Origin: Halorussus ruber
Lineage (GTDB): Archaea; Halobacteriota; Halobacteria; Halobacteriales; Haladaptataceae
Length of the DNA: 64,000 nucleotides
Reading direction: 5' to 3'
Assembly (NCBI RefSeq): GCF_004765785.1
Contig: NZ_SBIT01000007.1
Span: forward strand, 186,001 to 250,000
The notes beneath the pieces are model-generated. The model searched no databases, was not told the origin of the DNA, and worked only from the letters and a program-made list of their open reading frames with translations. Shown in pieces: positions 7,882 through 11,217 of the stretch; within the stretch, counting starts at the first letter, position 1, and each line of letters starts with the position of its first letter. A program made the translations under genes and the position numbers.

Positions 7882-8910
7882 TCAGCCCTGCCACTCAAGC
7901 ACCGTCGCGGCCCACGTGTAGCCGGTTCCGGCCGCGAGGAAGCACAGCACGTCCCCCGAATCGACCAGGCCGCGCTCCAGGCCCTCGTCCAGCGCGAGAA
8001 TCTGGTCCACGCTCTGGACGTGGCCGTACTCGTCGAGGTAGTAGTTTTTCGCGTCCAAGCGGTCGGTCAGCAGGTCGTGGAAGGACCGCTTCATGTGGGT
8101 CAGCGCGACGAAGTCCAAGTCTTCACGGTCGTAGCCCGACCGCGAGAGCGCGTCGTCGGCGACCGCCTCGAAGTTCGGGAGGCTCACGTCCGCCAGCCGC
8201 TCCTTCATGCCCTCCGGGTCGGGCACGTCGAGGGCGTGGAGGCCCTGCTCGACCGTCGCGTGACTCGCCGGGTTCCGGGACCCGCCAGCGGGCATGACCA
8301 CGTCCTCCGAGAAACTGCCGTCCGTCAGCGCGGCGCTCTCCCGAATCGTGGCCCGCGTCCTGCTCTCCTCGGGGTCGGCCTCCAGCACCATCGCGCAGGC
8401 CCCGCTCCCGAAGTTGAACATGAACGACGAGTCCTCGTTCTCGTAGTCCACGAGGTCCTCCTCGCGGCTGGCCGAAACCAGCAGGGCCGTCTCGGGCGCG
8501 TCGGCGACGAGTTGGGACTTGGCCTGCCGGATAGCGAGGGGTGCCCCGGCACAGAGCGCGTAGCTCTCGACCGCGAAGGCCCCGTCCGCGCCGATGCGCT
8601 CGGCGACGTTCGCCGCCGCGCTCCAGACCACGAAGTCCTTGAACTCCGACCCGTGGTAGAGGACCATCTCCACGTCTGAAGGGTCGATTCCGGCGTCATC
8701 GAGGGCGTCCTCGGCGGCTTTGACGCACATGTCCGTCGCGTGGTCTGCGTCGGGTGGACAGACTCGCTTCTCGCGGACGCCCATCTTCTCGACCACGACC
8801 TCCTCGGGAATGTCGCTCTGGGCGGCTATCTCCTCGCCCGTGACGACCTCCTCGGGCACGTAGGTTCCGTATCCGGTCAGTCCGACTGTGGATTCGTCTG
8901 GTTCTGTCAC
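7882..8910 (-). CDS. 3-oxoacyl-ACP synthase III (FabH)-like condensing enzyme
   Basis: A 342-residue thiolase-fold protein of the KAS III group. The nucleophile is Cys120 in ESYALCAGAPLA and the first catalytic His is His272 in LTHMKRS. Where FabH has Asn in a GNT-type motif, this protein has His297 (YGHVQS), so the catalytic set reads Cys-His-His. Haloarchaea make isoprenoid rather than fatty-acid membranes, so the product is uncertain; relatives act in polyketide-type or acyl-CoA condensations. Its GTG start overlaps the livM stop by four bases, so it is the last gene of the ABC-transporter transcript. That link suggests a role in metabolising the imported compound, which is inference. Confidence 0.82.
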   Translation of the reverse strand: MTEPDESTVGLTGYGTYVPEEVVTGEEIAAQSDIPEEVVVEKMGVREKRVCPPDADHATDMCVKAAEDALDDAGIDPSDVEMVLYHGSEFKDFVVWSAAANVAERIGADGAFAVESYALCAGAPLAIRQAKSQLVADAPETALLVSASREEDLVDYENEDSSFMFNFGSGACAMVLEADPEESRTRATIRESAALTDGSFSEDVVMPAGGSRNPASHATVEQGLHALDVPDPEGMKERLADVSLPNFEAVADDALSRSGYDREDLDFVALTHMKRSFHDLLTDRLDAKNYYLDEYGHVQSVDQILALDEGLERGLVDSGDVLCFLAAGTGYTWAATVLEWQG

Positions 8911-10211
8911 TTCTCGTCACCTCGCAGTCGCGCCGCGACCTGCTTGCCGACCGGGCCGCCGAGGCGGTCCCGAACCGTCCCCAGCAGCCCGTTCGGGATG
9001 AACAGGACGAACAGCACGAAGATGACGCCGACGTAGAGTTCGGCGTGGCCGTTGAGGAAGGTGTCGATGGCCTGTCCGATGGTCAGCCCGTTGTAGAGTT
9101 CGGTCGTCATCGTCGCCTCGCCGAGGTGGTCCCGGAGGTAGGGGAGGAGACCGCCGCCTTCCCCGGACTTCGAGAGGAACTCGGTGACCGTCTCGTCGAA
9201 GAGCCAGCCGTAGAGCGGTCCGGCGAGGGTGCCGAACCCGCCGATAATCGACGCCAGCAGGGCGTCGCCCGTCACGAGGAAGTAGAAACTGCTCTCGGGC
9301 GAGACCGACCGCTGGAAGCCCGCGAACAGGCCCCCGGCGACCGCAGCGAAGAACGCCGAGACCGCGAACGCGCCGAGTTTGTACCAGAAGGTGTTGTAGC
9401 CCACGGCCTCGGCGCGCTCCTCGTTCTCGCGGATGGCGACCAGCACCTTCCCGAACGGCGAGTGGATGATGCGCTGCATGGCGAAGTAGCACGCCAGCAC
9501 CACGAGGCCAATCATGTAGTAGGAGACCTCGGTCGTCCCGAACGAGAGGAATCCCAGCAAGCCCTCGACGCTGTCGCCCGCGAGTTGGCCGATGGCCAGA
9601 TTGAGCGAGTCCACCCCGGGCACGCCGATGCTAAACGGTTCGGTCCGGCCCAGTACCGCGGGGCCGTCCCGCGGGTTGCTCGCCACGAAGTCCCAGTCGC
9701 GGACGAACACGTACAGCACCTGCGAGAACCCGAGTGTGATCATGGCGAAGTAGACTCCCGACAGGCGGAACGACACCGCGCCGATGAGGACCGCGAGGAC
9801 CGCCGCCACGAGTCCCGCGAGAACCAGCAGGTAGATAAAGGGCGTGCCGGTCCCGAGCATGGGTATCTTCCCGTTGGCGACGAGGATGACGAAGTACGCC
9901 CCCGTGCCGTAGAAGGCCGCGTGGCCGAACGAGAGGTAGCCCGTGTAGCCGCTAATGAAGTCGAACGACATGGCGAACAGCCCGAAGTACAGCACCGTAA
10001 TCATCGTCTCCACGTCGGGCAGAACCGTCACCATCTCCGCGCCGACCGGCGAGTTCGTCAGCGCCGAGTGGAGCGCGGGGTAGGCCGCGAAGAACGCGAT
10101 GACCGCGACGTGGACCGTCTGCTCGCGCAGGTAGCGAACCGGCCACGACGCCGCCTGCTCCCCTTCCGTCTCGGACTCGGGAGCCGCGGCGTCAGCGGTT
10201 TCGGTGCTAAT
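8907..10211 (-). CDS. livM: Branched-chain amino-acid/amide ABC transporter permease (LivM type), probable ATT start
   Basis: Integral-membrane permease of the LivM family, with the signature region ISGYTGYLSFGHAAFYGTGAY and about nine to ten hydrophobic segments. The first ATG (10034) would drop an N-terminal segment that is open, in frame and encodes a membrane helix (VHVAVIAFFAAYPALHSALT). Extending upstream there is no ATG, GTG or TTG. An ATT at 10209-10211 stands about 8 nt after a perfect AGGAGG and overlaps the livH stop (ATTAG), mirroring the coupled overlaps elsewhere in this operon. I therefore place the start there, giving 434 residues. If ATT is not used, the protein is 375 residues and lacks the first helix. 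Confidence 0.88.
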   Translation of the reverse strand: MSTETADAAAPESETEGEQAASWPVRYLREQTVHVAVIAFFAAYPALHSALTNSPVGAEMVTVLPDVETMITVLYFGLFAMSFDFISGYTGYLSFGHAAFYGTGAYFVILVANGKIPMLGTGTPFIYLLVLAGLVAAVLAVLIGAVSFRLSGVYFAMITLGFSQVLYVFVRDWDFVASNPRDGPAVLGRTEPFSIGVPGVDSLNLAIGQLAGDSVEGLLGFLSFGTTEVSYYMIGLVVLACYFAMQRIIHSPFGKVLVAIRENEERAEAVGYNTFWYKLGAFAVSAFFAAVAGGLFAGFQRSVSPESSFYFLVTGDALLASIIGGFGTLAGPLYGWLFDETVTEFLSKSGEGGGLLPYLRDHLGEATMTTELYNGLTIGQAIDTFLNGHAELYVGVIFVLFVLFIPNGLLGTVRDRLGGPVGKQVAARLRGDEK

Positions 10212-11217
10212 GGCCGCCCACCTCCTCGACGCCGAAGATACCCTGCGGGCGCAGGATGAGCATCGCCACGAGGATGAGGAAGATGGTCATCTCGGGCAGA
10301 CTGGCGAAGTCGATTTCGTTGACGAACCACCACGTCGTCACGGAGTCGGCCATCCCGACGATGACCGCGGCGACGACCGTGCCCCGGAAGGTGCCGAGGC
10401 CGCCGATGATGACGACCACGAACGCCGGGAGGAGCGTGTCGGCGGCCAGCGGGACGCTGGCACCCCACGCGGGGTCCCACATCAGGAGCGTCCCGGCGAC
10501 GCCGGCCACGCCAGCGCCGAGCGCGAAGACCACGGTGAACACCCGGCGCACGTCGATGCCCAGCGCCTCGGTCATCTCGGCGTCCTCGCTCCCGGCCCGG
10601 ATGACGAGTCCGTAGCGCGTCCGGGTGAGGAAGGCCCACAGGCCCGCGACGGTGGCCGCGCCGACGACGATTTCGAACAGCGAGAGGCCGCTGACCGAGA
10701 TGAGGCCGAGGTCGACCGACTCGGAGAGGAACCACGGCTTGGTCCCCAAGGCGGCCTGCCAGTCGCTGGTGGGTTGCATCCCGTAGAACAGGACCGCGAT
10801 GCGGACCAGTTCGTCCAAGATGAGCGTCAGCCCGAACGTCAGCAGAATCTGGTAGACCGGCGGGCGGTCGTAGAGGCGTCTGATGAGTCCGACCTCGACC
10901 ACGCCGCCCAGCCCCGCCAGCAGGGCGAACGTCACGGCCAGCGTCAGGAAGAACACCAGCAGGCGGGTCGCGCCGCCGGACGCGCCGCCGACCGCGAACA
11001 CCATCAGCAGGCCGCCCAGATACGCGCCGATCATCGTCATCGACCCGTGGGCGAAGTTCAGCACGCCCATCAGGCCGAAGATGAGGGTCAGGCCGCCCGC
11101 AATCATGACGTAGATGGCGGCCTTCGCCAGTCCGTCCACGAGGACCGACGCGAGGTTCTCCGGTCGGAGGAACTGGCCGAGCGCGTCGATGAACCCGGCA
11201 AGGACGATTTCCATCAT
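10207..11217 (-). CDS. livH: Branched-chain amino-acid/amide ABC transporter permease (LivH type)
   Basis: A 336-residue membrane protein of the LivH permease family. The conserved region GLTLIFGLMGVLNFAHGSMTMIGAY is present near residues 42-66, followed by further hydrophobic helices. It would pair with LivM to form the translocation channel, energised by LivF and LivG. The start codon is one of two adjacent ATGs (MMEIV...) overlapping the livF stop, which implies translational coupling. The 3' end overlaps the proposed ATT start of livM. Substrate class (branched-chain amino acid, urea or short amide) cannot be separated from sequence alone. Confidence 0.93.
   Translation of the reverse strand: MMEIVLAGFIDALGQFLRPENLASVLVDGLAKAAIYVMIAGGLTLIFGLMGVLNFAHGSMTMIGAYLGGLLMVFAVGGASGGATRLLVFFLTLAVTFALLAGLGGVVEVGLIRRLYDRPPVYQILLTFGLTLILDELVRIAVLFYGMQPTSDWQAALGTKPWFLSESVDLGLISVSGLSLFEIVVGAATVAGLWAFLTRTRYGLVIRAGSEDAEMTEALGIDVRRVFTVVFALGAGVAGVAGTLLMWDPAWGASVPLAADTLLPAFVVVIIGGLGTFRGTVVAAVIVGMADSVTTWWFVNEIDFASLPEMTIFLILVAMLILRPQGIFGVEEVGGH

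Follow-up and report, generated by a model that had tools for sequence, protein, structure and literature searches.

A probable ATT start codon for livM, overlapping the livH stop codon, in Halorussus ruber and most haloarchaeal orthologues

The livH-livM junction

Two permease genes of the BPD_transp_2 family (PF02653) follow one another on the minus strand of the window (the whole 64,000-nt stretch of DNA analysed here). The upstream gene, livH (10207..11217), has CAT as its last codon and TAG as its stop codon (10209-10207). The downstream gene, livM, assigned from its translation, its PF02653 match and its orthologues, ends in TGA at 8907 and would extend over 8907..10211 and encode 434 aa if read from an ATT at 10209..10211. 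This proposed start codon is in frame with the first canonical in-frame codon, an ATG at 10032..10034, and forms with the livH stop a 5-nt overlap, ATTAG (10207..10211), which confirms the overlap reported in the first-pass annotation of this sequence. That annotation also described the livM frame as open for 59 codons 5' of the ATG at 10034 and free of ATG, GTG and TTG, and the reading frame bears this out; these codons (10035..10211), which are lost under a canonical-start annotation, specify an acidic tail as well as the first membrane helix (residues 23-52). Its further statement that the frame ends near the livH stop is wrong. The frame remains open for 25 more codons 5' of ATT, to a TGA that ends at 10287, and ATG, GTG and TTG are absent from all 84 livM-frame codons between this upstream in-frame stop and the ATG (25 + 59).

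Within livH, the Shine-Dalgarno (SD) sequence GGAGGTG (10219..10225) precedes ATT by a 7-nt spacer and matches perfectly the 16S rRNA 3' end of the same genome (GGATCACCTCCT). A perfect AGGAGG about 8 nt before ATT had been noted earlier; the SD is indeed present, but AGGAGG ends 9 nt before ATT, and GGAGGTG with its 7-nt spacer is the better description. livH and livM hence show what characterizes a termination-reinitiation pair, namely overlapping stop and start codons with an SD inside the upstream gene. A scan of the same genome with GGAGGTGN{6,8}ATT gave 12 matches, versus five for a control pattern, and one-by-one inspection of these matches found a long frame without canonical starts at livM only.

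LivM scored 116.6 bits against PF02653, above the Pfam gathering cut-off of 26.8, and 94.6 bits against NCBIfam PRK11301 (bacterial LivM), below the curated cut-off of 366; the transporter proteins fall below the curated cut-offs for both LivM and LivH. We therefore treat LivM as a LivM-like permease with an unproven substrate. A ketoacyl synthase III-like gene (PF08541, PF08545; 7882-8910, minus strand) follows livM by a GTGA overlap, and a 3-oxoacyl-ACP synthase is annotated beside livM in plasmid records as well. This neighbor may hint at a transporter substrate other than branched-chain amino acids.

Conservation and constraint at the junction

Searches for livM orthologues found the gene in 138 of 391 Halobacteria genomes (E up to 1e-80) and, within the genus, in 17 of 18 genomes (E up to 1e-100). 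Of the 150 loci gathered, three lack livM in the stretch and one lacks livH, leaving 146 with both genes. ATT stands in frame at the livH stop in 138 of these 146 loci, corresponding to 138 genomes from 40 genera and 8 families, and the overlap is ATTAG in 137 cases and ATTAA in one. The other eight loci comprise five with ATG at the equivalent place (ATGA overlap), one with TTG (TTGA), one broken second copy with ATTAG and one fragment. The 138 genomes of the class-wide search divide into 131 with ATT, five with ATG, one with TTG and one fragment, and the genus search contributed the other seven ATT genomes. ATTAG is carried by named public genomes of, among others, Halorussus, Haloarcula, Halobaculum, Halorubrum, Natronomonas, Natrinema and Halosimplex. 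The ATT genomes are relatives rather than 138 independent tests, and the synonymous sites adjoining the motif are diverse.

These counts support the earlier proposal that livM starts at ATT. Orthologues with ATG or GTG at the same site had been suggested as a check, and this yielded the five ATG genes, which are Halovenus-type, and the TTG gene, all six of them followed by Ser. The five ATG-form genes group as a single clade (support 1.0), which nests only tentatively within the ATT genes, the node that bears on whether ATT is ancestral having a support of 0.26. Sequencing error as the source of ATT is ruled out by its presence in 138 genomes; resequencing, given that ATT is kept in 40 genera, will not yield ATG or GTG. 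A chance origin of the ATT/SD arrangement is likewise excluded by its conservation.

Pattern searches gave a similar picture. The pattern GGNGGTRGGNGGYCATTA occurs in 133 of the 391 Halobacteria genomes (41 of 86 genera), compared with five genomes for the pattern reversed as a control. GGNGGTRGGNGGYCATTA sites without livM in the stretch were seen in G325 and G357 and at the second site of G332; a second site, seen in part, is present in the genome of the window as well. Within the genus, livM is the sole match to GGAGGTGN7ATTAGC, in 16 of 18 genomes; of the other two, one has a broken livM and one is 62% complete. In one genome of the same genus (G007, locus L232), livM is frame-shifted and shortened, and the stretch lacks livH. 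On a Halobaculum plasmid, a second copy of the livH-livM pair (L227, in G235) has an intact ATTAG and a broken, unannotated livM frame.

We examined constraint at the junction over the 138 ATT-form genomes, taking the A of ATT as position 0. Inside the SD, the third codon positions of livH at -14, -11 and -8 are G in all 138, and the SD itself is GGAGGTG in 133 and GGGGGTG in five. Position +1, the third position of the last livH codon, is T in all 138, such that this codon is always CAT; elsewhere in livH, CAT and CAC occur in a ratio of 2:205, and livM has 42 CAT versus 874 CAC among its His codons. The spacer wobble position at -5 varies (G 59, C 45, T 30, A 4), as do positions farther up. 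Within the spacer (10212-10218 in the window), the base at -2 is C in 135 genomes and T in three, although GGG makes up 1394 of 5308 livH Gly codons. The livH stops of the ATT form are TAG or TAA and never TGA, and the livM stops that fall within the stretches are TGA in 36 of 37. Codon 2 of livM is AGC or AGT (Ser) in 137 of 138 and AAT in one; with TAG fixed, AGA or AGG at codon 2 would encode Arg, which is never observed. Ser fills column 2 in 143 of 144 aligned proteins, those of the ATG and TTG forms among them. The ATG form has its SD in a shifted register (GGTGATC), and there too the start lies 7 nt after GGTG. CAT TAG and the SD wobble positions are thus conserved beyond coding need while the spacer wobble is free, and on this comparative evidence the constraint fits a ribosome-binding site and a start codon, not a protein end.

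The same evidence bears on whether livM has a start of its own at all. A frameshift at CAT TAG might instead produce a LivH-LivM fusion, as happens in the release-factor-2 gene, and both the strong SD-like sequence before a stop codon and the open livM frame upstream would suit such an event. The SD at the release-factor-2 frameshift site lies much closer than 7 nt, however, and the 7-nt spacing found here suits initiation. Moreover, an ordinary start codon occupies the place in the ATG and TTG orthologues, and the relative frame varies: the first base of livM precedes the livH stop by 2 nt when the start is ATT and by 1 nt when it is ATG or TTG. Given this difference, we reject the fusion, which we consider highly improbable.

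The N-terminal segment of LivM and other candidate starts

The codons between ATT and the first canonical codon show a codon-position GC bias. Pooled over genomes, these 4,496 codons have GC contents of 0.761, 0.564 and 0.872 at the first, second and third positions, and contain no in-frame stops, whereas the two remaining frames contain 14 and 53. The extra membrane helix that had been read into the sequence upstream of the ATG is conserved, with Tyr44-Pro45 found in 144 of 144 proteins and His34 in 139 of 144. A model of LivM built with 35 aligned sequences (mean pLDDT 75.7) places this helix at residues 23-52 with block values of about 77-85, and residues 1-20 are disordered. Sequence searches for solved relatives (E up to 0.01) and Foldseek searches with the model (E up to 0.001) found no match; fold comparison recovered general ABC-importer permeases only (best VIA Z 14.6 and 13.8), which has no bearing on the start.

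These features weigh against the view that livM starts at a downstream canonical codon (here the ATG at 10034) and that the upstream frame is open by accident. Public records agree with that view. Nine of ten plasmid records with livM annotate the gene, and 9/9 place its start downstream of ATT, so that 85-298 nt separate it from the livH stop. No gene is listed at livM in the remaining record, which holds the second copy of Halobaculum marinum. Against it, Met occupies the position of the ATG in 24 of 144 aligned proteins, while the upstream-encoded Tyr44-Pro45 is invariant; the upstream segment shows codon-position GC bias and no stops; and the invariant SD and CATTAG are left unexplained. 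Comparison of the orthologues shows that any downstream start would remove the conserved membrane helix, and we regard a downstream start as very unlikely. With livM starting at ATT, public protein records would contain a systematic error, in that they lack or truncate the first membrane helix of the permease. In Halobaculum magnesiiphilum (L254, 1327-1551), a hypothetical protein is annotated antisense where the livM N-terminus is missing, and it is probably spurious.

Canonical codons elsewhere in the frame do not offer a better candidate. No canonical codon lies between the upstream stop and ATT in 102 of the 138 genomes, and in 58 of these 102 (17 genera) the first downstream canonical codon lies beyond the conserved His34, in 27 (9 genera) beyond the invariant Tyr44. 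On these counts, and on the frame in the window, no canonical start can serve the conserved LivM N-terminus. An upstream in-frame canonical codon is found in the other 36, being GTG at codon -2 only in 25 and others in 11. GTG at codon -2 arises from T at -5 and occurs in 30 of 138 genomes in all, above the expectation from GGT among livH Gly codons (506 of 5308), with 16 of the 30 falling in one family. This GTG, where present, or one of the near-cognate codons that exist in the window frame (CTG 10130, ATC 10100, CTG 10061) might be proposed as the start. The GTG lies 1 nt from the SD, however, and is absent in 108 of 138 genomes, and all 30 carriers retain CAT and ATT; the conserved SD points to ATT, and no comparable conserved signal was seen at the CTG and ATC codons. 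A start at any of these seems to us the most remote of the possibilities considered.

Probable reinitiation and the persistence of ATT

Taken over the orthologues, the comparison shows the place of the livM start and its conservation, and we conclude that livM of this Halorussus-type haloarchaeon, like most haloarchaeal orthologues, very probably starts at ATT and is coupled to livH. We infer that initiation takes place at ATT itself and that the first residue is Met. ATT is probably used by reinitiation after livH. A ribosome finishing livH at TAG would be held by the GGAGGTG SD sequence, which would position AUU, whose last base is common with the stop, at the P site. Initiator Met-tRNA would then pair with AUU by two of its three bases, LivM would begin Met-Ser, and the LivH/LivM pair would be translationally coupled.

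Haloferax volcanii has termination-reinitiation pairs that resemble livH/livM in their stop/start overlap, in the SD within the upstream gene and in encoding subunits of one complex (PMC6728339, PMC10666635). These pairs overlap as ATGA or GTGA (-4) or TGATG (-1), whereas ATTAG at livH/livM is a -5 overlap. In one study, overlapping genes of H. volcanii and Escherichia coli showed strict coupling in 13 of 14 pairs with a variable contribution of the SD (PMC6728339). The section on overlap lengths in a survey of 2.66 million gene pairs reports the -5 overlap to be >1,000-fold rarer than -4 and describes it as seemingly ruled out, given that the last base of a start is G and the first base of a stop is T; the section names ATTAG as a hypothetical -5 possibility and gives no example there (PMC10666635). 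On the alignments described above, livH/livM is a conserved example of the -5 overlap that this section of the 2023 survey held impossible with canonical codons (PMC10666635). A literature search of open-licence papers turned up none on an ATT start in haloarchaea and none on livM.

Two bacterial genes offer partial parallels, both described in the same article (PMC5472188). E. coli infC, which encodes IF3, has AUU as its natural start codon, as proposed for livM. The infC gene is bacterial, however, and IF3 represses its own AUU start, whereas livM is an archaeal transporter gene that overlaps an upstream stop; feedback of the product on the livM AUU start is not expected. Streptomyces sigR starts at GTC, a non-canonical start that lies behind an extended AGGAGGTG site, was misannotated and is conserved in 32 of 34 species (PMC5472188). 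It differs from livM in that its GTC is IF3 dependent and conserved within one genus, while the livM ATT spans 40 archaeal genera. In E. coli, ATT initiates at about 0.3% of the level of ATG (Hecht 2017, as cited in PMC10666635), and such weak initiation counts against an ATT start for livM.

ATT may have persisted because it is partly frozen, because a start that functions solely in the coupled state was selected, or for both reasons. It would be partly frozen since the livH stop begins with its third base. ATT might even be merely trapped, a reading that concerns the reason for the codon and not the place of the start and to which we assign slightly less than an even chance. A change of the third base destroys the livH stop, and without TAG LivH would gain more than 50 codons in 79 of 138 genomes (median 94). 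The extension would nevertheless be at most 10 codons in 35 of 138 (5 in the window), none of which has changed to ATG, and the ATG and TTG forms show that escape is possible.

Alternatively, the livM AUU might be a selected, reinitiation-only start across haloarchaea, too weak for fresh ribosomes despite the strong SD and accepted by a ribosome that has just terminated on livH. We consider this possible but doubtful. If it were true, LivM would be made only where LivH was just made, and the -5 ATTAG overlap would join -4 and -1 as a third class of coupled overlap. The ATT start, being fixed in 40 genera, is measurable in tractable haloarchaea.
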